64,000 nt of DNA from Gemmatimonadota bacterium (GTDB lineage Bacteria; Gemmatimonadota; Gemmatimonadetes; Longimicrobiales; Gaopeijiaceae), in assembly GCA_007126575.1 (NCBI GenBank), contig SLBA01000002.1, forward strand, positions 1 to 64,000, in the 5' to 3' direction. Below the pieces are notes generated by a model that had not been told where the DNA came from, ran no database searches, and was given only the letters and a program-made list of their open reading frames with translations. Position 1 is the first letter of the stretch. Each line of letters opens with the position of its first letter. Made by a program: the position numbers and the translations under genes. Of the stretch, positions 11,527-24,443 are shown piece by piece.

Positions 11527-12219
11527 ATGGCATCTCTGAAGGACCTCCGCGGCCCGGTCTACCGGATCATCGAACCGGTGACCCGGGCCCTCGTGCGATG
11601 GGGTGTCCACCCCAATGCCCTCACCAGTTTCGGCTTTCTGGTGACGGTCTTCGCGGGGCTGCTCTACCACATGGACCACGTGCGCTGGGCGGGGTTTTTC
11701 GTGCTCCTCGGCGGGCTCGTCGATATCTTCGACGGTCGGGTGGCGCGCGAGAGCGGGCTGGCGTCGAAGTTCGGATCATTCTATGACTCGACCCTCGACC
11801 GGATGAGCGAGATCGTCGTCTTCATCGGACTGATCTCGCTCTACAATCAGTACGGGCGCGAACTCGCCGACGCCTGGATGATCTACGTGATCGCCCTGGC
11901 GATGGGGGGCTCGGTCATGGTCAGCTACACGCGGGCCCGCGCCGAGTCGCTGGGTCTCGACTGCAGCGTCGGATTCATGCAGCGGGCGGAGCGCGTGGCG
12001 CTCCTCGGGGGTGGATCCCTCTTCTTCGGGCTCATGTGGGACGGGCTCGTACTCAAGGTGGTCCTGGTCATTCTGGCGATCACCACGGTGCTTACAGCGA
12101 TCCAGCGAATCGTCTGGGTCTATCTACATGCGGCGGGCGTGCCTCTCGACGAGGCGCCGGCCCCGCCCTCCAACAACGAGCGAACGGAGTCAATCAGTGA
12201 GCGATCGACCAGAGATTAA
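11527..12219 (+). CDS. CDP-alcohol phosphatidyltransferase (probable phosphatidylinositol-phosphate synthase)
   Basis: This membrane enzyme of 230 residues joins a CDP-diacylglycerol to an alcohol phosphate. The family signature DG-x2-AR-x8-G-x3-D-x3-D is intact in the stretch that begins DGRVAR and ends SFYDSTLD (about residues 68-90). Five or six hydrophobic helices are visible, and the C-terminus is a hydrophilic Pro-rich tail. Its 3' end overlaps the inositol-phosphate synthase gene by 23 bases. By context the likely alcohol is myo-inositol phosphate, giving phosphatidylinositol phosphate. Phosphatidylglycerol-phosphate synthase remains an alternative from sequence alone. Confidence 0.82.
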   Translation: MASLKDLRGPVYRIIEPVTRALVRWGVHPNALTSFGFLVTVFAGLLYHMDHVRWAGFFVLLGGLVDIFDGRVARESGLASKFGSFYDSTLDRMSEIVVFIGLISLYNQYGRELADAWMIYVIALAMGGSVMVSYTRARAESLGLDCSVGFMQRAERVALLGGGSLFFGLMWDGLVLKVVLVILAITTVLTAIQRIVWVYLHAAGVPLDEAPAPPSNNERTESISERSTRD

Positions 12220-13516
12220 ACCGGCCACCGGCCGCCTCGGCATCCTTCTTCCCGGGTTCGGCGCCGTCGCGACCACAGTGGTCGCGGGGGTCGAGGCCGC
12301 CCGGCGTGGCCTCGCGAAGCCCATCGGCTCGCTGACCCAGCTGAACACGATCCGCCTGGGCAAGCGGACCGACGACCGGACGCCCCTCATCAAGGACTTC
12401 GTTTCACTCTCGGAGCTCGAGGACCTCGTCTTCGGCACATGGGACCCGATCCCCGACGATGGATACGAGAGCGCGTTGAACGCCGGCGTCCTCGAACGCC
12501 ACCACCTGGATCCGATGGAGGACTTCCTGCGGTCGGTCAAGCCGATGCCGGCGGTCTTCGACAAGGAATACGTCCGGCGGCTGGACGGACCGAACGTGAA
12601 GAAGGGTGAGAACAAGTTCGACCTCGCCCGGCAGCTGCGCGAGGACATCCGCCGCTTCAAGGAGGAGAACGGGTGTGAACGCCTGGTGATGGTCTGGTGC
12701 GGAAGCACCGAGATCTTCCTGCGTACGGGTGCGGTCCACGCGACGCTCGAGGCGTTCGAGCAGGGGATGCGCGACAACGACCCGGCGATCGCCCCGTCGA
12801 TGCTCTACGCGTATGCGGCGATCATGGAGGGGGTTCCGTATGCGAACGGCGCCCCGAATCTCTCGGCCGACATCCCGGCCCTGGAAGAGGCCGCCATCGA
12901 GCGGGGCGTGCCCCTTGCCGGAAAGGATTTCAAGACGGGCCAGACGATGATGAAGACGATCCTGGCCCCGGGCTTCAAGGCCCGCATGCTGGGCGTCGAG
13001 GGCTGGTTCTCGACGAACATCCTGGGCAACCGTGACGGCGCCGTCCTCGACGATCCGGAGTCCTTCAAGACGAAGGAGGAGTCGAAGCTGAGCGTGCTCG
13101 AGCACATCCTGCAGCCCGAAAAGTACCCCGATCTCTACAAGGATCTGTACCACAAGGTGCGGATCAACTACTACCCCCCGCGCGGCGACAACAAGGAGGG
13201 GTGGGACAATATCGATATCGTGGGGTGGATGGGCTACAAGATGCAGATCAAGGTAGACTTCCTGTGTCGGGACTCGATCCTGGCCGCCCCGATCATCCTC
13301 GACCTGGCGCTCTTTCTCGACCTGGCCAAGCGGTCCGGGCAGAGCGGGATCCAGGAGTGGCTGTCCTTCTACTTCAAGAGCCCGCAGACGCCCGCGGGCC
13401 TCTATCCGGAGCACGACCTTTTCATCCAGCACAAGAAGCTGAAGAACACGCTTCGCTGGCTGGGTGGCGAGGAGCCCCTGACCCACCTGGGGCTCGAGTA
13501 CTACGAGGGAGAATGA
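12197..13516 (+). CDS. ino1: Myo-inositol-1-phosphate synthase
   Basis: This enzyme makes L-myo-inositol-1-phosphate from glucose-6-phosphate with catalytic NAD. The product of 439 residues has an N-terminal Rossmann glycine-rich loop (GILLPGFGAVATTV, about 11-24). The family core is present: VMVWCGSTE near 165, MLYAYAA near 200, GKDFKTGQTMMKT near 240 and STNILGNRDG near 275. GTG 12197 is chosen because GGAG lies 8 bases upstream and the Rossmann strand then follows directly. Adjacency to a CDP-alcohol phosphatidyltransferase points to inositol lipid synthesis rather than mycothiol synthesis. The length resembles the Bacteroidota-type synthase more than the roughly 360-residue actinobacterial form; that comparison is from memory. 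Confidence 0.93.
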   Translation: MSDRPEIKPATGRLGILLPGFGAVATTVVAGVEAARRGLAKPIGSLTQLNTIRLGKRTDDRTPLIKDFVSLSELEDLVFGTWDPIPDDGYESALNAGVLERHHLDPMEDFLRSVKPMPAVFDKEYVRRLDGPNVKKGENKFDLARQLREDIRRFKEENGCERLVMVWCGSTEIFLRTGAVHATLEAFEQGMRDNDPAIAPSMLYAYAAIMEGVPYANGAPNLSADIPALEEAAIERGVPLAGKDFKTGQTMMKTILAPGFKARMLGVEGWFSTNILGNRDGAVLDDPESFKTKEESKLSVLEHILQPEKYPDLYKDLYHKVRINYYPPRGDNKEGWDNIDIVGWMGYKMQIKVDFLCRDSILAAPIILDLALFLDLAKRSGQSGIQEWLSFYFKSPQTPAGLYPEHDLFIQHKKLKNTLRWLGGEEPLTHLGLEYYEGE

Positions 13517-13520
13517 GGTC

Positions 13521-14252
13521 GTGAATCCTTCGGAGGGCCCCGACGCCGCTTCCCCCGGGGAGGGGCGTCGGGGTCTTTTCCTGGTCATCGAGGGGGTCGA
13601 GGGGGCGGGCAAGTCCACGCAGGTCGAGCGACTGGTCCAGTGGCTCGAGACCCTCGGAGTCGAAACCGTCCGGTCGCGGGAGCCGGGGGGGACGCCGCTC
13701 GGAGAGGCGGTCCGGGAGGTACTCCTCGATCGGGACGAACTCCGGATCGGGTCGGAGTCCGAGCTCTTCCTGATGCTGGCGGCCCGTGCGGCCTTCGTGC
13801 GCGACGTCGTGCGGCCGGCACTCGAGCGCGGCGCGGTGATGGTCGCGGACCGCTTCGAGTTCTCGACCTTCGCCTACCAGGGCTACGGCCGGGGGCTTCC
13901 CCTCGACGAGGTCCGGAGGCTGAACGCCTTCGCGACCGGGGGCCTTCGACCCCATCTCGTCCTCATCCTCGACCTCCCGGCGGCCGAGGGGAGGGCGCGT
14001 CAGCGGACCGCGGGTAAGGTGGACGATCGCATCGAGGCGTCGGGCGAGGGATTCCTCGAACGAGTTTCGCGCGGGTACCGACTCCTGGCCGCCGAGGATG
14101 ATCGCGCGGTCCTCGTCGATGCGCGCCTCGAGCCCGGGGGGGTCGAAGCCCGCATCCGCTCCGTGCTCGCCGCTCGATTCCCGGAACCCTTCGGTACCGC
14201 GGGGGGTTCGAGTACTTCAACTCTCACTCAACCGCCGATCCCCTCCGAATGA
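13521..14252 (+). CDS. tmk: Thymidylate kinase
   Basis: This kinase phosphorylates dTMP to dTDP in the dTTP pathway. The product of 243 residues starts at GTG 13521. The P-loop EGVEGAGKST lies near residue 24, the DR motif in ADRFEFSTFAYQG near 110, and a LID-like KVDDRIE near 168. An N-terminal extension of about 16 residues precedes the first strand. The stop overlaps the next start (ATGA). The C-terminal 20 residues (Gly/Ser/Thr-rich) are atypical. Confidence 0.94.
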   Translation: MNPSEGPDAASPGEGRRGLFLVIEGVEGAGKSTQVERLVQWLETLGVETVRSREPGGTPLGEAVREVLLDRDELRIGSESELFLMLAARAAFVRDVVRPALERGAVMVADRFEFSTFAYQGYGRGLPLDEVRRLNAFATGGLRPHLVLILDLPAAEGRARQRTAGKVDDRIEASGEGFLERVSRGYRLLAAEDDRAVLVDARLEPGGVEARIRSVLAARFPEPFGTAGGSSTSTLTQPPIPSE

Positions 14253-15979
14253 GTTCTCGACGCGCCCCCCTAGGTCCCGGAATCGTCCTCCTTCTGGCTC
14301 TCATGGCCGGGGGGTGGTTTCTGCAGCGTGGCGTGGCGCAGGAAGAGAACGTCTACCTGCAGTCGCGGCTCTTCCAGGAGGTCCTGGATCACATCTCGGA
14401 CCGATACGTCGATCAGCTCGACCGCGAGCAGCTCTACGACATCGCGATCGACGGACTGCTGAGGGAGCTCGGCGACCCGAACTCCTCGCTGTTGAACGTC
14501 AGCGACTACGAGGACTTCAGGATCCAGACCGAGGGGGACTACGGGGGCGTGGGCCTCGAGATCGTCGACCGCGACAACCTTGTGACCGTCGTGAGTCCGA
14601 TCCCCGGAACCCCCGGGGCGCGCGCGGGCATTCGAGCCGGGGACCAGATCGTCGAGGTCGACGGTGAGTCGATTCGGGGCTGGTCGAGCCAGCAGGCCGT
14701 GCAGGTGCTCCGGGGCCGTCCCGGATCCGACGTGGATGTGCAGATCCTCCGGCCGGGGGTCGAGAACCCGATTCCCTTCACCCTGACCCGACAGCAGATC
14801 CAGCTGCGCTCGGTCGCCTTCGCCACACTGCTCGACGGGGACGTAGGCTACATCCCCCTCGGGATGTTCCAGGAAAACTCGGGACGCGAGGTGCAGGCGG
14901 CCGCCGACTCCCTGCGATCCGAGGGTGCCCGCTCCTTCATCCTCGACCTGCGGGGGAACCCGGGGGGGCTGCTTGCCCAGGGGATCGGGATCACCGACCT
15001 CTTCCTTCCCCGACGGGTCCCGATCGCCGAGACCCGTGGGCAGAGCCGGGACCAGAACGAGGTGATCGAGTCTTCGAGCGACGATCGGTACGAGGGCATG
15101 CCGGTGGTGGTGCTGGTGGATCGCGGGAGCGCGTCCGCCTCGGAAATCCTGGCGGGCGCGCTGCAGGACCACGACCGTGCCCTGGTCGTTGGTGCCACGA
15201 CGTTCGGAAAGGGCTCCGTGCAGTCCCTGTTCACCCTGACCGGGGGGAACGTCCTGAAGCTCACGACCGCGCGCTGGTATACTCCTGCCGGTCGGTCGAT
15301 CGAGCGCCGGACGGACCCCGGTGAGGAACCGGAGGAGCCCGTCGAGGAGGCCCCGGCCGAGCCCGTGCCCCAGACCGTCTCGCTCGGACTCTACGGCGAG
15401 TATGTCTTTTCTCCCGACACAGCGGGTCGGCCCACGGTCGAGTCGATGGCCGGTCGCCAGCTCTACGGGGGTGGGGGGATCGTGCCCGACCTCCTCGTGA
15501 ATCCGGACACCCTTTCGCTGCGGGAGCAGCGGGCGGTTCGCGCCCTCTTCCAGCACGCCGGCATCTACACCACGGGCGTCTTCGACTTCGCCGTGGCCTA
15601 CCTCCAGCGCCAGGACTCGAACGAGGACTTCGAGGTCACCCAGGGCGACCTCGATGACCTCTACGCCCTGTTGCAGGAGCGGGGGTTCGAACTGGATCGT
15701 GAACTGTGGAACGACGCGGAGCGATTCACCCGGCTCCAGCTCGAGTCACAGATCGCCCTTCAGGGGTGGGGCGATGCCGGCCAGTTCCAGCGCCGACTCC
15801 CCAACGACCGTCCGCTGCAGCGCAGTCTCGAGATCCTTCGGGGCACCGAGGACCCCCTCGCGCTCTTTTCGCTCGGGTCCGAGCGTGCGTCGTCCGGAGA
15901 GGGATCGGGATCGGACTCAGACGCGGACGCGGGCGCCGACGAAGAGACCGGATCGGACTCGGAGTCCCCGGGTCGTTGA
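14249..15979 (+). CDS. Carboxy-terminal processing protease (S41, PDZ)
   Basis: This is a periplasmic serine protease of the CtpA/Prc family. The order is an N-terminal signal anchor (about residues 9-30), a helical N-domain, and a PDZ domain (about 95-180, with YGGVGLEI and PGARAGIRAGDQIVEV). The S41 catalytic domain follows, with its Ser in RGSASASEI near 295 and Lys in FGKGSVQS near 320. LDLRGNPGG near 235 is the conserved strand before the active site. A long C-terminal region of about 220 residues is not a recognised domain and ends in an acidic Ser/Asp/Glu-rich tail. The start overlaps the tmk stop by 4 bases. Confidence 0.93.
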   Translation: MSSRRAPLGPGIVLLLALMAGGWFLQRGVAQEENVYLQSRLFQEVLDHISDRYVDQLDREQLYDIAIDGLLRELGDPNSSLLNVSDYEDFRIQTEGDYGGVGLEIVDRDNLVTVVSPIPGTPGARAGIRAGDQIVEVDGESIRGWSSQQAVQVLRGRPGSDVDVQILRPGVENPIPFTLTRQQIQLRSVAFATLLDGDVGYIPLGMFQENSGREVQAAADSLRSEGARSFILDLRGNPGGLLAQGIGITDLFLPRRVPIAETRGQSRDQNEVIESSSDDRYEGMPVVVLVDRGSASASEILAGALQDHDRALVVGATTFGKGSVQSLFTLTGGNVLKLTTARWYTPAGRSIERRTDPGEEPEEPVEEAPAEPVPQTVSLGLYGEYVFSPDTAGRPTVESMAGRQLYGGGGIVPDLLVNPDTLSLREQRAVRALFQHAGIYTTGVFDFAVAYLQRQDSNEDFEVTQGDLDDLYALLQERGFELDRELWNDAERFTRLQLESQIALQGWGDAGQFQRRLPNDRPLQRSLEILRGTEDPLALFSLGSERASSGEGSGSDSDADAGADEETGSDSESPGR

Positions 15980-16027
15980 TCGCCCCGGTCGGACCGATCC
16001 GCCCGGACCGGCGCCCGGAGGCCTGAC

Positions 16028-16891
16028 GTGAGCCTCCTGGCGCTCCTGCTCGCCCTCGCCATGGGAGCGCTCGTCGGGGTCCTCTCGGGCCTTCTCGGCA
16101 TCGGAGGGGGCATCGTGATGGTGCCCTTCTTCTACCTCCTCATGGCGATGCCCGAATGGTCGGGGATCGTGGTGGCGTCGGAGCACCAGACCGCGCTGGC
16201 CCATGCCACCTCGCTGGCGGTGATCCTTCCCACCGCCGTCTCGGGATTCCTCTCGTACCGGCGGCTAGGCACCCTCGACTTCGACGTGGTCCTGCCCCTC
16301 GGGGTCCCGGCCGGGATCGCCGCCGTATTCGGGGCCCTGCTCGCGGTGGCGATGCCCGGGCCCCTCCTTCGGGTCGGGTTCTCGGTCCTCCTACTGGTTT
16401 CCTGCCTTCGCCTCCTCCGCTCCGACGACGGGACTTCCGTTACCGCGCATCGCGAGGCGGGCGGTGGCGTCTCGAAGGGGGCGGCGGTCGTCGGGGGCGC
16501 CGGGGTGGGACTGCTCTCGGCGCTGCTGGGGATCGGCGGGGGGATCGTGGCGATCCCGATCCTGCTCCACTGGGTGGGGCTCGAGCTCAAGCGCGTGGCG
16601 GCGGCCTCGATCGGGATCGTCGCCTTCGCGGCGCCGGCGGGGATCCTTTCCTACGCGGCCGCCGGCTGGGGAGTGGAGGGGTTGCCGGGGGGGTCGGTCG
16701 GCTACGTGGCCCTTCCCCTGGCCCTGGCGATGATCCCGGGGGCGGTCCTGTTGGCTCCCCTCGGCACCCGGATCAACCAGGCCCTGCCGGTCCGGCATCT
16801 GCGGAGGGCGTTCGGTCTCCTCATGCTCGTGGTCGGGATCCGGCTCCTCTGGACCAACCTCCCGCAGCTGCCCGGGCTGTGGACCGGATGA
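16028..16891 (+). CDS. TauE/SafE-family membrane exporter
   Basis: This polytopic permease of 287 residues has about eight hydrophobic helices and the duplicated family motif: GLLGIGGGIVMVPFF near residue 20 and SALLGIGGGIVAIPILLH near 165. Members export sulfite, sulfoacetate or related small organic anions; the substrate here cannot be read from the sequence. GTG 16028 has GGAGG 6-7 bases upstream. No sulfur-metabolism gene is adjacent. Confidence 0.88.
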   Translation: MSLLALLLALAMGALVGVLSGLLGIGGGIVMVPFFYLLMAMPEWSGIVVASEHQTALAHATSLAVILPTAVSGFLSYRRLGTLDFDVVLPLGVPAGIAAVFGALLAVAMPGPLLRVGFSVLLLVSCLRLLRSDDGTSVTAHREAGGGVSKGAAVVGGAGVGLLSALLGIGGGIVAIPILLHWVGLELKRVAAASIGIVAFAAPAGILSYAAAGWGVEGLPGGSVGYVALPLALAMIPGAVLLAPLGTRINQALPVRHLRRAFGLLMLVVGIRLLWTNLPQLPGLWTG

Positions 16892-16982
16892 GGTCGGCAC
16901 GCTGGTCGGAGCGTTACCTTTTCTGCCATGGAAGCGCCCGGAGATCCGGACCATACTCCTTCGCACGGGAACGACGAGACTC

Positions 16983-18695
16983 ATGACGGCAGACGGGAAG
17001 GCGGGGACCGTGATCCTGCGGCGGGCCTCGACCCAGGAATCCGTGCACCGCGTCCACGCCGCGGTCGTGGAGGCCGGGGGGCGGCGGATCGCGGTGCGGG
17101 GTGAGGTGGACCGGGTCACCTACATGCGCTCTGCCGCGAAGCCGTTCCAGGCGCTCCCGCTCGTCGAGGACGGTGTGGTCGAGGCGCTGGGGATTCAGGC
17201 GGATGAGCTGGCGCTCGCCTGTGGCTCCCACAGCGGAGAGCCGGAGCACGTCAGGGTGGCGGAGCGGCTCCTGGCCCGCACGGGGTTCGATGTCGGAGCG
17301 CTCGCCTGCGGGGCCCACCCTCCAATGGGGGGACCTGCCGCGGCGGCCCTCTGGAGGGAGGGAGGGGAGCCCGGGCGGATTCACAACAACTGTTCGGGAA
17401 AGCATGCCGGGATGCTCGCGCTCGTGCGTCATCGGGGGTGGGATCCCCGGGGGTACCAGGCCGCTGGGCACCCCGTCCAGGAGCGGATGGCCCACGAGAT
17501 CGCCCGGTGGACCGGGGTTCCCCGCGGGGAGCTCGTCGAAGGGGTCGACGGGTGCGGGGTGGTCTGCTTCGCGGTCCCACTCGAGGCGATGGCCCGGGCG
17601 ATGGGCGCCTTCGTGCAGGCGGCGGACACCGGAGACCCGGGTCCCGCCTCGGTGCTCGGCGCGATGACGGAGCATCCCTGGATGGTGGCGGGGACCGACC
17701 GCCTGTGCACGGAGCTCGTCGAAGCGACCCGGGGGCGGGTGGTGGCCAAGGTCGGCGCCGAGGGGGTCTATTGTGCCGGGGTACGGAGCCGGGGGCTCGG
17801 GATCGCGCTCAAGGTCGAGGACGGGGCGAAGCGTGCGGCCGAGGTCGCCCTCCTGGCGATCCTGGATCAGCTCGAGCTCCTCGACGCCGAGGCCTGGGGG
17901 CGGCTCGAGCGCTGGAGGCCGGCGCGTGTTCGCAATACGCGTGGGGAGCCCGCGGCCGAGCTGGAGCCCGATCTCGAGCTTCGGATGGTGGGCGCGAACG
18001 GGACGGGCCCCGAGGATTCCGGGGTTGAGCCGGGAGCGAGGCTTTCGTCCTCGGTGCGGGTGCTGGTGTCCCTGAGCGCCGCTCTGGCGGCGGGCGACGA
18101 CGACCGGGTTCTGGAGGCGCTCTCGACCGCCGCAGCGCTCGGGATGCAGCGCGAGGTGGAGGAGTGCCTGCTTCAGGCGCATCTCTTCGTGGGCTTCCCT
18201 CGGGCGCTCAACGGATTCGCGCAGTGGCGCTCGCTCGGCCACACAGGTGGCGACCGACCGGAGTCCGACGAGGACCGCTCGGAGTGGCCGGCTCGAGGGG
18301 AGCGGCTGTGTCGAGTGGTGTACGGGAGCGCGTACGAGGGACTGCGGGAGAACATCGGCTACCTTCATCCCGCAATGGATCGATGGATGGTCGAGGAGGG
18401 GTACGGAAAGGTGCTGGGAAGGCCGGGACTCGCCCTCAGGACCCGGGAGCTGTGCGTCGCGGCGGTCCTCGCCGTCCAGGGGGTCGGCCCGCAGCTGCAT
18501 TCACACCTGCGGGGCGCGCTGCGGGTCGGCTGCACCCCCGCCGAGGTCGACGAGGCCCTGCGCCTGGCGACCGAGGGGATCGACGTGGCCTCCGGCCGCC
18601 GTGCCTTCGAGGTCTGGAGATCGGTGGAGTCCCGGCACCGATCCGGGAATCGTTCCGACGCATCGGGCAGCGATGCGCGGAAACACATTCAATGA
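16983..18695 (+). CDS. Type-III-like asparaginase fused to a carboxymuconolactone decarboxylase-like domain
   Basis: A single 570-residue reading frame joins two families. Residues 1 to about 325 match the asparaginase II family typified by Rhizobium etli ReAV: the Ser-x-x-Lys pair at Ser50/Lys53 (MRSAAKPFQ), CGSHSGEPEHV near 80, HNNCSGKHAGM near 137, DGCGVVCF near 190 and KVGAEGVYCAG near 258. After a linker, residues about 355-555 resemble a duplicated CMD/AhpD-type helical domain: LLQAHLFVGFPRALNGF near 405, then LALRTRELCVAA and HSHLRGALRVGCTPAEVDEAL near 480-525. The AhpD CxxC is absent, as in PcaC-type decarboxylases. No stop or obvious frameshift separates the halves. Fusion of these families is unusual in my experience, and the function of the second half is unknown. 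The ATG start at 16983 has no strong ribosome site. Confidence 0.85.
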   Translation: MTADGKAGTVILRRASTQESVHRVHAAVVEAGGRRIAVRGEVDRVTYMRSAAKPFQALPLVEDGVVEALGIQADELALACGSHSGEPEHVRVAERLLARTGFDVGALACGAHPPMGGPAAAALWREGGEPGRIHNNCSGKHAGMLALVRHRGWDPRGYQAAGHPVQERMAHEIARWTGVPRGELVEGVDGCGVVCFAVPLEAMARAMGAFVQAADTGDPGPASVLGAMTEHPWMVAGTDRLCTELVEATRGRVVAKVGAEGVYCAGVRSRGLGIALKVEDGAKRAAEVALLAILDQLELLDAEAWGRLERWRPARVRNTRGEPAAELEPDLELRMVGANGTGPEDSGVEPGARLSSSVRVLVSLSAALAAGDDDRVLEALSTAAALGMQREVEECLLQAHLFVGFPRALNGFAQWRSLGHTGGDRPESDEDRSEWPARGERLCRVVYGSAYEGLRENIGYLHPAMDRWMVEEGYGKVLGRPGLALRTRELCVAAVLAVQGVGPQLHSHLRGALRVGCTPAEVDEALRLATEGIDVASGRRAFEVWRSVESRHRSGNRSDASGSDARKHIQ

Positions 18696-18707
18696 GAAGG
18701 GAAGACC

Positions 18708-19835
18708 ATGTTCGTTGACGAGGTGACCATCAAAGTCCGCGGGGGAGTCGGCGGGTCCGGTTCGGACGCGTTCCGGCGGGAGTCCTTCGTGCCCCGGGGC
18801 GGTCCGGCGGGAGGGGACGGGGGAGCCGGGGGAAGTGTGATCCTCGAGGTCGACGACCAGCTCTCGACTCTGATGGACTTCCGGTACCGGGCCGAGTACC
18901 GGGCGGAGCGGGGCCAGCACGGACAGGGAAAGAGCCGTACGGGGCGGGGGGGCGAGAACCTGGTCCTCAAGGTGCCGCCGGGGACCGAGGTCCACGACGC
19001 CCAGTCCGGGGAGTACCTTGGTGAGCTCCTCGAAGATGGCGAGCGCTTCGTCGCCGCCCGCGGAGGTCGGGGAGGCCGCGGCAACATCCACTTCACGAGC
19101 GCCACGAACCAGGCCCCCCGGACCTGGGAGCCCGGACAGGAGGGCGAGGAGCGGACCGTGCGCCTCACCCTGAAGCTCATGGCCGACGTCGGCCTCGTGG
19201 GCGAACCGAACGCGGGGAAGTCGACGCTCATCTCGGCGCTCTCGGCGGCGAAGCCCAAGGTCGCCGATTATCCCTTCACGACCCTTTCGCCGAATCTGGG
19301 GGTGGTGACGCTCTCCGGGTTTCGATCCTTCGTGCTCGCCGACATTCCCGGGATCATCGAGGGTGCGCACGAGGGCAAGGGGCTCGGCCACCAGTTCCTT
19401 CGTCACATCGAGCGCACGCGGACCCTGGCGGTCCTGGTTCCGGTGACCGAGCCCGATCCACTCGAGACCTACGAGCGCCTCCGCAGGGAGCTGCGGCAGT
19501 ATTCGCCGGAGCTCGCGGACCGGCCCCACTGCCTGGTCCTGACCAAGGTGGACCTGCTGAGCCCGGACGATCCTCCGCCCGAGCCCGATGCCCCCGAGGC
19601 GTGGGGCGTGTATGCGATCTCGTCGGTGTCCCGCAGCGGGCTCGACGCCCTGCAGGAAGGGCTGTGGAAGACCGTGATCGAGACCCGCGACGGAGAGGGG
19701 TCCGCGGTGATTCGGGAACGCGAGACCGGCGGTGCGGGTGATGAGCCCGGATCCGAGGGGGAGGACGAGGCCGTGGGGGATCCGCCGACCGGTCCGGAGG
19801 ACGAGGACGAGTGGTGGGGCGCCGACCCCCTCTGA
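18708..19835 (+). CDS. obg: Obg-family GTPase
   Basis: Obg is an essential ribosome-assembly GTPase linked to the 50S subunit and the stringent response. The product of 375 residues has the glycine-rich Obg fold at the N-terminus (VRGGVGGSG, RGGPAGGDGGAGG). The G domain has G1 GEPNAGKST near 166, a switch-I threonine in DYPFTTLSPN, G3 DIPGII near 208 and G4 TKVD near 282. The C-terminal tail is acidic (EDEDEWWG). The start lies 13 bases after the fusion gene. The last 25 bases overlap dprA. Confidence 0.96.
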   Translation: MFVDEVTIKVRGGVGGSGSDAFRRESFVPRGGPAGGDGGAGGSVILEVDDQLSTLMDFRYRAEYRAERGQHGQGKSRTGRGGENLVLKVPPGTEVHDAQSGEYLGELLEDGERFVAARGGRGGRGNIHFTSATNQAPRTWEPGQEGEERTVRLTLKLMADVGLVGEPNAGKSTLISALSAAKPKVADYPFTTLSPNLGVVTLSGFRSFVLADIPGIIEGAHEGKGLGHQFLRHIERTRTLAVLVPVTEPDPLETYERLRRELRQYSPELADRPHCLVLTKVDLLSPDDPPPEPDAPEAWGVYAISSVSRSGLDALQEGLWKTVIETRDGEGSAVIRERETGGAGDEPGSEGEDEAVGDPPTGPEDEDEWWGADPL

Positions 19836-20971
19836 TCGAGGCGGCTGAGGAGGACGCCCTCCTGGCCCTTCGGATCCTTCCCGGGGTCGGGGACCTGGGG
19901 GTAATCCGCCTTCTGTTGCGCTGGGGCTCGGCGCGCGAGGTCTGGCGGCACCCGGACGCGGTGGCGCAGGCGGGGCGTTCCGAGACCAGGGACGCCCTCG
20001 GGACTCCGAACCGTCTCCTCGACGAGGCCCGGGCGATTCGCGAGCGTTGTCTGCGGGACGGATTCCGGATCACCGGGTTCCTCGACCCGGACTACCCACG
20101 TGCTTTGCACCACCTCTACGATCCTCCCCCGGTCCTGTTCAGCTACGGTGACTTCGGGATCCTGCGCAGACCGCTGGTCGCGATGGTCGGCAGCAGGAAG
20201 GCGACGGCGACCGGCCGGCGAACGGCGGAGCGGGTCGCCGCGGAGCTGTCGGCCGAAGGGATGGGCGTGGTGAGCGGGATGGCGTTAGGGATCGACGGCG
20301 CGGCTCACAAGGGTGCGCTCCGGGGACCGGGCAGTACCGTCGCGGTGCTGGCGAGGGGACCCGATCGCGCCTACCCGGTGGCGAACGCCGGCCTCTTTCG
20401 AGCGGTGGCTCGGAAGGGGCTCCTGGTGAGCGAATTCCCCCCGGGCGAGAAGGCACGGCCGTATCACTTTCCCAGACGCAATCGGATCATCGCGGCCCTC
20501 TCGTGGGGTGTGGTGGTGGTCGAGGCCGGGCGTCGCAGTGGAGCGCTGATCACCGTGGATCACGCGCTCGACCTGGGCCGCGAGGTGATGGCGATCCCCG
20601 GATCGGTCGAATGGGAGCAGACCCGCGGTACGCATGACCTCATCCGGCGGCTCGGCTGCATCGTAACCTCGACCGACGAGATCCTGGAGTCCGTCCCCTG
20701 GGCCGCCCTCGAACTCGAGGAGGTGTCTCCCGAGCTGCTCCAGGCGGCCCGGAGGGTGGGCCGATCCAGCCCCGCCCTGCGCCTGCTCCCGGCCGAGGAG
20801 CGCCTGGGGGATCTCGTGGGGCTCGAGCCCCTCCCTCTCGAGGCGATCCTGGAGCGCTCCGGGCTGCCCGCGTCGCGGACACTCGCAGCGCTTACCCGGC
20901 TCGAAGTCGAGGGACGGATCCGACGGGAACCCGAGGGGTGGGTGCGGGTGGCGGCCTCGGGGTCCCGGTGA
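19811..20971 (+). CDS. dprA: DNA processing protein DprA
   Basis: DprA protects incoming single-stranded DNA and loads RecA during natural transformation. The product of 386 residues has an N-terminal SAM-like helical region, then the Rossmann-like core with MVGSRKATATGRRTAE near residue 124, SGMALGIDGAAHKGAL near 160 and FPRRNRIIAALS near 220. A C-terminal winged-helix-like region begins after about residue 300. GTG 19811 lies inside the end of obg. No other competence gene is seen in this window. Confidence 0.93.
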   Translation: MVGRRPPLIEAAEEDALLALRILPGVGDLGVIRLLLRWGSAREVWRHPDAVAQAGRSETRDALGTPNRLLDEARAIRERCLRDGFRITGFLDPDYPRALHHLYDPPPVLFSYGDFGILRRPLVAMVGSRKATATGRRTAERVAAELSAEGMGVVSGMALGIDGAAHKGALRGPGSTVAVLARGPDRAYPVANAGLFRAVARKGLLVSEFPPGEKARPYHFPRRNRIIAALSWGVVVVEAGRRSGALITVDHALDLGREVMAIPGSVEWEQTRGTHDLIRRLGCIVTSTDEILESVPWAALELEEVSPELLQAARRVGRSSPALRLLPAEERLGDLVGLEPLPLEAILERSGLPASRTLAALTRLEVEGRIRREPEGWVRVAASGSR

Positions 20972-22101
20972 GCACCCGGGTCGAGACCGGACGCCTCGAA
21001 GCGGCCGACGTCCCGTCCGGCACGTATCGGCACCTGTATCTGGAGGTCCCCTGGGCGGTCCGGGGCGTCCAGGAGGGGGGAGAGGGAGCGTCGGATACGT
21101 GGGCCAGACTCCTGGGGCGGGAGCGCGCGATGCGTTCGGAGCGGGGGGGCCGGGTGAGCTCCGAGTTGAGTTCGCTCCTGATCGGGGGCGCGGCCCCCGC
21201 CTCGCTGGGACGGGCGCTTCCCCGGCTCGTGCGCGGGCTTCTGCCGGCTCCGGATTCGAGCGTGGGCGAGTGGACGGTCGAGGTCGAGCCGGGATGGGCG
21301 GAGGGGGCGTCCGACGACCCCCTGTCGACGGTCGGGGCATGGCTGGAGGGTGGCGTGACCCGGCTCTGCCTTCGCGCCGACCCGGCGGCGGGCCCCGGCG
21401 GGTGGAGCGCCGAGAGGCTCACCCTGCTCGAGGGCATCGCCGATCTCGATCCCCCGGTGCTGGCGGCGGATCTCGTTCTTCGGTCGGGGGGGGAGGAGCC
21501 CGAGCCCCTTCACGATCTCCTGGATCGACTGCAACGGTCGGGTGTCTCCCACCTTTCGCTTTACGAGGATTCGGTGGGGGACGAAGATGCGGAGGATCGC
21601 TCCGGGGAGCTCTGGTGGGGGCTGCGGGAGAGGGCGTCGCAGCTGGGATTCGAGTCCACCGATGTGGTCAACCTGGCGCTCCCGGGAGCGGCCTCGACGA
21701 TGGCGATGGCGATCCAGCGTCGGTGGCCGATCCTGGGGTTGGGACCCGGGGCCCGGAGCTTCCGCAACCCGCGAAGACACTGGAACGTGCCGAGTTGGAG
21801 CCACTACCGGGCCCGGTTGTCCCGGGGGCTGGATCCACGAAGCGGCGGAGAGCTCCTCTCCGGCGACGAGGTTCGGCTCGAGCGGATCTGGTCCCGGCTG
21901 CCGACCCGGGAGGGAATGAGGGTTCCCCTCCGGCTCGGCGGAGATGACCCGAGGATTCGGGCATGGTTGCGTGCCGGCTGGATCGAGTGGCACCCGGGAC
22001 GCATACGACTGACGTCCAGGGGGATTCTCCGGCTCGACGGAATCGCGGTCGAGCTGGCCGACCTGCTCTCTGCCCCTCGACGCGGGGCCCTCGATCTCTG
22101 A
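20968..22101 (+). CDS. HemW-like protein lacking the radical-SAM cysteines
   Basis: This 377-residue product follows the HemW/HemN-like architecture from end to end. HLYLEVPW sits where HemW has its LYxHIPFC strand, then come SSLLIGGAAP (FFGGGTP in HemW), EWTVEVEPG (EITLEANPG), GVTRLCLRAD (GVNRLSLGVQ), SHLSLYED, LGLGPGARSF, SHYRARLSRGLDP and a C-terminal IRLTSRGILRLDGIAVEL. The CxxxCxxC cluster motif is absent; only one cysteine remains in the whole protein, near residue 137. Its position just before hrcA-dnaJ-prmA is the usual HemW position. It should not be able to bind a SAM-type 4Fe-4S cluster, so a radical reaction is unlikely. GTG 20968 overlaps the dprA stop. Confidence 0.75.
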   Translation: MSTRVETGRLEAADVPSGTYRHLYLEVPWAVRGVQEGGEGASDTWARLLGRERAMRSERGGRVSSELSSLLIGGAAPASLGRALPRLVRGLLPAPDSSVGEWTVEVEPGWAEGASDDPLSTVGAWLEGGVTRLCLRADPAAGPGGWSAERLTLLEGIADLDPPVLAADLVLRSGGEEPEPLHDLLDRLQRSGVSHLSLYEDSVGDEDAEDRSGELWWGLRERASQLGFESTDVVNLALPGAASTMAMAIQRRWPILGLGPGARSFRNPRRHWNVPSWSHYRARLSRGLDPRSGGELLSGDEVRLERIWSRLPTREGMRVPLRLGGDDPRIRAWLRAGWIEWHPGRIRLTSRGILRLDGIAVELADLLSAPRRGALDL

Positions 22102-22114
22102 TCTTGAGAGTACC

Positions 22115-23200
22115 ATGGCCGAATCACTGAATCCAGAGGAGTCGCGCGCGCGGCTCGGAGACGACCTGACGGAGAGAGAACGTCGGGTCCTCGACGCCGT
22201 GGTGCGTACCTACGTCGAGACGGCGGAGCCGGCGGGCAGCCGCACGGTCACCCGGCGCTTCAGTCTCGGGGTGTCGCCGGCGACCGTGCGCAACACGATG
22301 AGCGACCTCGAAGAGAAGGGGTACCTCATCCATCCGCACACCTCGGCCGGGCGGGTACCGACCGACCTCGCCTACCGGGTCTTCGTCGACCACCTGATGC
22401 AGCCGGCCGTCCTCTCGGAAGAGGACCGGCAGCGGCTCGCCAAGGAGCTCGACCGGCCCGGGTCCTCCGAGGTGGAGCGGCTGGTCCGGCGGGCCACCCG
22501 TGCCCTGGGCCTCCTCTCGCAGGAGCTCGGAGTCGCCGCGGCGCCGCGCCTGGACGCGGCCGTACTCGAGCGGCTGGAGCTCGCGAGGGTCTCGGCCACC
22601 AAGGTGCTCCTGGTTGCGCAGATCCGGAGCGGGCTGGTCCGAACCCTCTACGTCGACCTGAATACCGAAGTGCCCGATGACACCCTCGTCACGATCACGC
22701 ACCTGCTCAACGAGCGGCTCGCCGGTCTGACCCTCAGGGAGATCCGTGAGACGGTCTCGGACCGGATCCGCGATGCGCAGGCCCACGCCGACGACGCGGC
22801 CGAGGAGATCCTCAACGTCTTCATGCAGTCGGGATCCGAGCTCTTCGACTGGCCGGAGGTGGAGGGCACCGCGATCCATCTGGGGCACACGTCGGTCCTG
22901 GCCACGCAGCCCGAGTTCACGACCGGCGAGCGCCTGAAGGGGCTGATCGAACTCACCGAGCAGCACGATCTGTTCGCGGCGGTGCTCGGGGACCGCCCGC
23001 ATCCCACCGGTCTGCAGGTCACCATCGGGGGTGAGAACATGCGCGACGAACTCCGGGAGTTCACCCTCGTAACCGCGGAGTACCGCGTGGGGACCCTGAA
23101 GGGGGTCATCGGGGTCATCGGACCCACCCGCATGGCCTATGACAAGGTCATCGCGATCGTGGACTACACCTCTTCGCTGGTGAACCAGATCCTGGAGTGA
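22115..23200 (+). CDS. hrcA: Heat-inducible transcription repressor HrcA
   Basis: HrcA represses chaperone operons by binding CIRCE inverted repeats and is kept active by GroEL. The product of 361 residues has a winged-helix domain (about residues 10-90; VSPATVRNTMSDLEEKGYL is the recognition region), then the GAF-like and dimerisation parts. The ending MAYDKVIAIVDYTSSLV is characteristic. dnaJ follows after 67 bases. grpE, which usually lies between them, is missing. No CIRCE element was found upstream of hrcA or dnaJ in this window. Confidence 0.96.
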   Translation: MAESLNPEESRARLGDDLTERERRVLDAVVRTYVETAEPAGSRTVTRRFSLGVSPATVRNTMSDLEEKGYLIHPHTSAGRVPTDLAYRVFVDHLMQPAVLSEEDRQRLAKELDRPGSSEVERLVRRATRALGLLSQELGVAAAPRLDAAVLERLELARVSATKVLLVAQIRSGLVRTLYVDLNTEVPDDTLVTITHLLNERLAGLTLREIRETVSDRIRDAQAHADDAAEEILNVFMQSGSELFDWPEVEGTAIHLGHTSVLATQPEFTTGERLKGLIELTEQHDLFAAVLGDRPHPTGLQVTIGGENMRDELREFTLVTAEYRVGTLKGVIGVIGPTRMAYDKVIAIVDYTSSLVNQILE

Positions 23201-23267
23201 TCGGGTTGCGGCGGGCATCTCCCGGGGGATATCCCGGTCCCATTGCTGAATTCTCAAACCACACGAT

Positions 23268-24443
23268 ATGGCAGATTACTACGAACTTCTCGGCGTGAGC
23301 CGGGATGCGGACGAGAACACGATCAAGAAGGCGTACCGCAAGCTGGCGATGAAGTACCACCCGGACCGGAACGAGGGGACTAAGGACTCCGAGGAGCGCT
23401 TCAAGGAGATTTCGGAAGCCTACGATGTCCTCAAGGACCCCCAGCGTCGGGCCCGGTACGACCGATTCGGCAAGGAGGGGGTCAAGGGCGGTCCCGGTGC
23501 GGGCGGCCCCTTCCAGGGCTTCGATATCCAGGACGCGATCGAGATCTTCATGCGGGACTTCGGCGCGGGTGGCGGCGGCTTCGAAGAGATGTTCGGAGGC
23601 GGTCGCCGCCGTGGCCGAGGCCGTCGCAAGAGCCGGAAGGGAGAGAGCCTGAGGGTTCGGCTCCCCCTCACCCTGTCCGAAGTGGTTCACGGTACGGAAA
23701 AGACGATTCGTGTCGCTCTGCTGGAACCCTGCGAGCGATGCGACGGCTCCGGCTCGTCCGACGGAAGGGCTCCACAGCCGTGCGGCAGTTGCGGTGGAAC
23801 CGGCGAGGAGCGCGTCGCCCAGAACTCCGTCTTCGGCCAGTTCGTCTCGCTGACCACCTGCCGAACCTGTCGGGGGGAGGGGACCGTCGTTTCGAATCCC
23901 TGCTCCGCATGTCACGGTGAGGGGCGGGAGAGACAGCAGCGCGAAGTCCAGGTCGAAGTACCGGCCGGGGTCACCTCCGAGAACTACATCACCATCCGGG
24001 GGAAGGGCAACGTCGGATCGCGAGGAGGCCCCCGGGGCGATATCCTGGTGCTCCTCGAGGTCGAGTCGGACCCACGATTCTCGAGAGAGGGCAACCACCT
24101 GATCATCGACGTTCCCGTGACCTTCGCCCAGGCCGCGCTCGGAGCGGACATCGAGGTGCCCACCGTCGACGGGACCACCCCGGTCGATCTTCCGTCTGGG
24201 ATCCAGTCCGGGCAGGCGCTCAGGATCCGGGGAGAGGGCGTGCCCGATCTCAACGGAGGGGGACGGGGCGATCTGATTGCCCGAATCCGGGTTTGGACCC
24301 CGGAGCGACTCAGCTCGGCACAGGAGGAACTCTTCCGCGAACTGAAGGCGCTCGAGGACCCCGCTCCCGAGACCCCGCCCGACGAGGGATCGGGGAGCCG
24401 TCGGGGATTCTGGTCCCGCGTCAAGGAGGCCTTCACCTCGTGA
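23268..24443 (+). CDS. dnaJ: Chaperone DnaJ
   Basis: DnaJ is the Hsp40 co-chaperone that delivers substrates to DnaK and stimulates its ATPase. The product of 391 residues has a J domain with HPD near 31-33 (KYHPDRNEG), a Gly/Phe-rich segment, a zinc-binding region with four CxxCxGxG-like repeats (CERCDGSG, CGSCGGTG, CRTCRGEG, CSACHGEG; about 155-215), and two beta-sandwich substrate-binding domains. The C-terminal tail is acidic and then basic. Its stop overlaps prmA by 4 bases. Confidence 0.97.
   Translation: MADYYELLGVSRDADENTIKKAYRKLAMKYHPDRNEGTKDSEERFKEISEAYDVLKDPQRRARYDRFGKEGVKGGPGAGGPFQGFDIQDAIEIFMRDFGAGGGGFEEMFGGGRRRGRGRRKSRKGESLRVRLPLTLSEVVHGTEKTIRVALLEPCERCDGSGSSDGRAPQPCGSCGGTGEERVAQNSVFGQFVSLTTCRTCRGEGTVVSNPCSACHGEGRERQQREVQVEVPAGVTSENYITIRGKGNVGSRGGPRGDILVLLEVESDPRFSREGNHLIIDVPVTFAQAALGADIEVPTVDGTTPVDLPSGIQSGQALRIRGEGVPDLNGGGRGDLIARIRVWTPERLSSAQEELFRELKALEDPAPETPPDEGSGSRRGFWSRVKEAFTS

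Follow-up and report, generated by a model that had tools for sequence, protein, structure and literature searches.

Does one gene of this Gemmatimonadota genome join an asparaginase to a carboxymuconolactone decarboxylase (CMD)-family domain, and what would the added domain contribute? The gene lies in a stretch of 64,000 nucleotides, referred to here as the window, and the original prediction had described it as such a fusion. Such a fusion links the class 3 asparaginases, which are studied for therapy, with an orphan family of two-repeat CMD proteins whose gene constantly adjoins obg, the gene of a ribosome GTPase, in Gemmatimonadota. None of the papers searched mentions asparaginase, CMD and Gemmatimonadota together, and fusions go unmentioned in a large survey of asparaginases from bacteria; public domain-architecture tables may already list the architecture.

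Two domains in one frame

The fused gene and its N-terminal features are as follows.

16983..18695, forward strand: fused gene, a single uninterrupted frame of 570 residues from an ATG start to a TGA end, class 3 L-asparaginase plus two-repeat CMD-family domain (frame, Pfam, AF2)
17016..17966, forward strand: asparaginase domain, residues 12-328 (Pfam; alignment to ReAIV/ReAV; Foldseek)
17973..18047, forward strand: linker, residues 331-355, of which 340-350 are predicted to be disordered (AF2, pLDDT < 50)

The encoded protein runs from an Asparaginase_II half through a short disordered linker into a two-repeat CMD-family domain. Pfam matched both families in the full protein, so that the predicted CMD similarity of the C-terminal half holds. 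The motifs on which the prediction rested are also intact, with Ser50/Lys53, DGCGVVC (189-195) and KVGAEGVYC (256-264) in the asparaginase half and FPRALNGF (405-412), TRELCVAA (487-494) and HSHLRGAL (506-513) in the CMD half. Structure prediction with AF2 gives confident folds for both halves (mean pLDDT 92.9 for the full protein, two confident domains). The pTM of the full model is only 0.71, however, and with residues 340-350 of the linker disordered, the relative placement of the two domains is undefined.

A sequencing error between two genes could have produced a spurious fusion. Instead, the assembly of a sister species (L002/L046) carries a 570-residue frame of identical length, with zero indels and 81% identity to the window protein, and a third species (L003/L047) has a fused version of 602 residues. 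Measured against the sister species, dN/dS is approximately 0.16 in the asparaginase domain, 0.25 in the CMD half and 0.8 in the linker. Both domains are under purifying selection, which, together with the indel-free frame of the sister species, rules out an assembly error or frameshift as the source of the fusion. By its dN/dS the linker appears nearly unconstrained, although it too has no indel between the two species. Family profiles, the predicted structure, the selection on both domains and the related sequences all support the fusion in one frame. A separate CMD protein may be made from an internal start in addition to the fusion.

Within the N-terminal half, PF06089 (Asparaginase_II) covers residues 12-328 with an E-value of 1.1e-113, and Foldseek aligns the fold with ReAV and ReAIV of R. 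etli at TMt 0.89-0.91. The half had been called a ReAV-type asparaginase. All the ReAV motifs are present, but the nearest solved structure by sequence is ReAIV (E 3e-62, 214 bits) and not ReAV (E 1e-47, 166 bits). The whole N-terminal fold, both Ser-Lys pairs and the zinc ligands are shared with ReAIV (PDB 8cly) and ReAV (PDB 7os3), whereas identity in the structural alignment is approximately 33-38% and those enzymes have no C-terminal CMD domain. Catalytic and zinc-binding roles have been assigned to individual ReAV residues, and its Cys249 is prone to oxidation (PMC8602277). Alignment places eight of eight such positions in the fused protein: the pairs Ser50/Lys53 and Ser82/Lys256 (ReAV Ser48/Lys51 and Ser80/Lys263), the zinc ligands Cys137, Lys140 and Cys191 (ReAV Cys135, Lys138 and Cys189), and Cys242 as the equivalent of Cys249.

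On residues and predicted fold the asparaginase assignment is strong, and the activity itself is predicted. The most likely reaction of the N-terminal half is hydrolysis of L-asparagine, yielding aspartate and ammonia, through the serine mechanism of class 3 enzymes, in which Ser50-Lys53 would form the nucleophile pair and Ser82-Lys256 the substrate pair, with zinc held at Cys137/Lys140/Cys191. The genome has one Asparaginase_II copy, one member of another asparaginase family (PF00710) and several asparagine synthase matches.

The CMD half and its divided motif

The C-terminal half comprises three features.

18048..18242, forward strand: CMD repeat 1, residues 356-420, which keeps E393-E394-x-L-L-Q398...GFPRALN and is missing the Glu-His pair
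18270..18422, forward strand: two long helices before repeat 2, residues 430-480, with conserved Cys443, His462 and Tyr474
18423..18641, forward strand: CMD repeat 2, residues 481-553, which keeps R488-E489 and QLxSHLRGAL (Gln504, His508) and is missing E..Q..GFP

Pfam CMD (PF02627) matches in two stretches, the best of them at residues 465-545 (E 6.8e-17), and the CMD family profile matches all 31 relatives. Modelled alone, the half reaches a pLDDT of 93.3 and a pTM of 0.90; the AF2 model comprises approximately 200 residues, folded as two homologous four-helix repeats with two long helices between them. The duplication read from the sequence was confirmed by profile-profile comparison of the repeats, which align in register (probability 94%, E 1e-7). 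The predicted fold is all-helical, Foldseek gives TMt 0.89 for 2af7 and TMq 0.70 for the two-repeat 4g9q, and both solved-structure matches of this half are called carboxymuconolactone decarboxylases.

Comparison with these structures indicates how the family motif has been split. The gamma-carboxymuconolactone decarboxylase-like 2af7 of Methanothermobacter superposes on repeat 2 and the two preceding helices at 30% identity, and both keep Arg-Glu and QLxSHxRGALNaG. However, 2af7 holds both motifs in one repeat of approximately 120 residues, whereas the fused CMD half divides them, with E-E-x-L-L-Q...G-F-P-x-A-L-N in repeat 1 and R-E-L...Q-L-x-S-H-L-R-G-A-L in repeat 2. PDB 4g9q also has two CMD repeats per chain, but it is 19% identical and, according to the profile match, carries the motif halves in reverse order. 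Among the 31 relatives, Glu394, Gln398, His462, Tyr474, Arg488, Glu489, Gln504 and His508 are invariant, and Cys443 and Cys491 nearly so.

This conservation bears on a rival reading in which the CMD half serves chiefly for assembly, and three-fold CMD/AhpD rings and asparaginase dimers would together build a larger particle. ReAV forms homodimers (PMC8602277), most AhpD-like proteins are trimers or hexamers of three-fold symmetry (PMC3141380), and the linker is flexible, all of which fit such a role. An inert scaffold, however, would have no need of putative active-site residues that vary little or not at all across 31 sequences, and the asymmetry of the repeats may have altered the interface. 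We regard a mainly structural role as unlikely.

Redox coupling, another role once proposed for this half, is disfavoured. In its fullest form the CMD half would be an AhpD-like partner that shields the zinc site and reactive cysteine of the asparaginase from oxidation. AhpD does belong to the CMD family, two cysteines of the half (Cys443 and Cys491) are nearly invariant, and Cys242 corresponds to the oxidation-prone Cys249 of ReAV. AhpD of Mycobacterium tuberculosis further shares the superfamily and the equivalents of Glu118 and His137 with the same spacing of 19, here Glu489 and His508. Both of its catalytic cysteines are nevertheless replaced: the AhpD pattern E-x11-C-x2-C-x3-H reads E489-x11-V501-x2-Q504-x3-H508, in agreement with the original prediction that the CxxC pair is absent. 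The half therefore has the Glu/His part of the AhpD relay and neither cysteine, and the missing CxxC excludes it from AhpD and led us to reject an AhpD-type redox role; the AhpD model TIGR00777 scores 15.3 bits against a cut-off of 191.95. Cys443 and Cys491 belong to different helices, with 48 residues between their positions, and the fused relatives L045 and L074 have no Cys249 equivalent, L045 having no Cys491 either. We consider the protective redox partner very unlikely.

A literal carboxymuconolactone decarboxylase step is also disfavoured. For carboxymuconolactone decarboxylase proper, PMC3141380 states that no active site had yet been established. The best named match of the half is TIGR02425 (PcaC, E 1.7e-13) and the nearest structures carry the CMD annotation, which would suit a true 4-carboxymuconolactone decarboxylase of aromatic degradation. 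The PcaC score of 50.8 bits is far under the cut-off of 155.7, though. No intradiol dioxygenase (PF00775) was found in the genome (G000, 96.5% complete), while four control genomes do match, and the conserved neighbourhood, when checked, held no aromatic-degradation pathway genes. A PcaC identity was rejected on the sub-cut-off score and the missing protocatechuate pathway, and is the least probable of the readings considered.

Gene neighbourhood and origin of the fusion

Three neighbouring genes are relevant here.

16028..16891, forward strand: TauE/SafE permease gene, upstream, whose linkage to the fused gene is not constant
18708..19835, forward strand: obg GTPase gene, 12 bases downstream of the fused gene (Pfam GTP1_OBG; synteny across the phylum)
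20938-22101, forward strand: gene between dprA and hrcA, with no Pfam match and no CxxxCxxC

Positions 12011-24443 of the window form a string on one strand, reading inositol-phosphate synthase - tmk - S41 protease - (TauE) - asparaginase/CMD - obg - dprA - HemW-like - hrcA - dnaJ, in an order kept across much of the phylum.

A survey of 121 Gemmatimonadota genomes, each at least 90% complete, found the asparaginase in 103 and the CMD family in 80; 75 have both, 28 the asparaginase without CMD, 5 CMD without the asparaginase and 13 neither. Two of the 80 CMD matches are weak (G071 and G084), and in G084 the match is also distant from the asparaginase gene. Where both genes occur, they are adjacent on the same strand in 64 of the 75 genomes. 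Of 80 loci fetched with a CMD alignment, 73 have obg as the next gene after CMD, and in nearly all CMD-less loci read obg directly follows the asparaginase. Separate genes upstream of obg thus have the same families, order and strand as the window, but encode two proteins in place of one. The gaps between them are mostly -11 to +96 bases, and many pairs overlap by 4-11 bases, as in translational coupling.

The original prediction treated the two families as not known to be fused. The fusion is real, but the taxonomic survey places the families side by side, as separate adjoining genes, in most of the phylum, so that two neighbours have merged locally and the combination is not an exotic one. 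The fused state, which occurs in some uncultured Gemmatimonadota, is represented by 8 distinct sequences, with 3-5 inferred state changes: a tree of 101 rows needs 5 changes, at least 3 of them forced by well-supported branches, although reversals could account for some and the placement of the long branch L045 is unsure. The fusion probably arose more than once, and the best reading is that two genes, neighbours of long standing, merged repeatedly.

Beyond Gemmatimonadota, one other phylum has the CMD family in 7 of 146 genomes, with no adjoining asparaginase or obg in the six genomes whose loci were read (flanks of approximately 1.2-2 kb). A plasmid search matched only the asparaginase half, with no record spanning 80% of the query, and the viral contigs searched gave no match. 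The bins L081, L095 and L101, titled BD2-11 clade, Gammaproteobacteria and Candidatus Kuenenia, carry the Gemmatimonadota cluster, nest inside the phylum in the tree and are probably mislabelled. In a 'Deltaproteobacteria' genome (L108/G262), the CMD family occurs without any class 3 asparaginase and its frame overlaps a spermidine-synthase-like frame. An apparent CMD-Obg fusion in L073 was rejected as the product of a stretch of N in the assembly. One lineage (L138-L141; G068, G095, G097 and G064) has a gene of approximately 200 residues between asparaginase and CMD; this lipoprotein-like frame occurs on either strand and was set aside as uninformative about function.

Coupling of the halves and proposed function

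We consider it rather probable that the fused protein is a bifunctional, co-produced enzyme pair formed from merged neighbours of the asparaginase - CMD - obg - dprA cluster. We infer both activities, the chemistry of the CMD half and a benefit from the 1:1 ratio. The C-terminal half would fold on its own and act as a non-redox enzyme of the CMD family, probably by acid-base catalysis through Glu489/His508 of repeat 2, perhaps completed by Glu394/Gln398 of repeat 1. The flexible linker would tether the halves and so fix their ratio; a direct chemical hand-over between them is neither required nor indicated.

The pairing is not obligatory, as each gene has been lost without the other. A mirror-tree test of asparaginase against CMD found no co-evolution beyond what common ancestry explains (partial r -0.03, p 0.63). 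Independent losses and this null result make a selectively neutral merger a serious rival, in which a stop loss or small frame change between coupled neighbours joined functionally unrelated halves and was tolerated because each product can fold by itself. In keeping with such an event, the genes of many relatives overlap by 4-11 bases or sit a few dozen bases apart, and the neighbours belong to a long, vertically inherited housekeeping string (tmk-S41-asn-CMD-obg-dprA-hrcA-dnaJ). However, the fused state appears at no fewer than 3 places on the tree and is retained between relatives approximately 58% identical, and the two genes co-occur above chance (odds ratio ~7, p 7e-4, uncorrected for kinship). 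We regard neutrality as possible but doubtful. A closed large particle combining two-fold and three-fold enzymes, or a CMD half that processes the product of an amidohydrolase acting beyond plain asparagine, seems quite improbable.

The fusion and the conserved neighbourhood offer a concrete starting point for finding what substrate the CMD protein uses. The fused protein is also a ready test of how a natural C-terminal domain affects asparaginase assembly and stability.

A further observation concerns the gene at 20938-22101. In relatives the position between dprA and hrcA holds what we take, from this position and from features of the family, to be a HemW-like radical SAM gene. HemN_C has no match in the whole genome. 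CxxxCxxC is present in 63 of 71 homologues, and those without it belong mostly to the close clade of the window (L046, L054, L061, L068, L084 and L097). The gene may encode a relative of the radical SAM proteins that has been kept although its iron-sulfur cysteines are gone.
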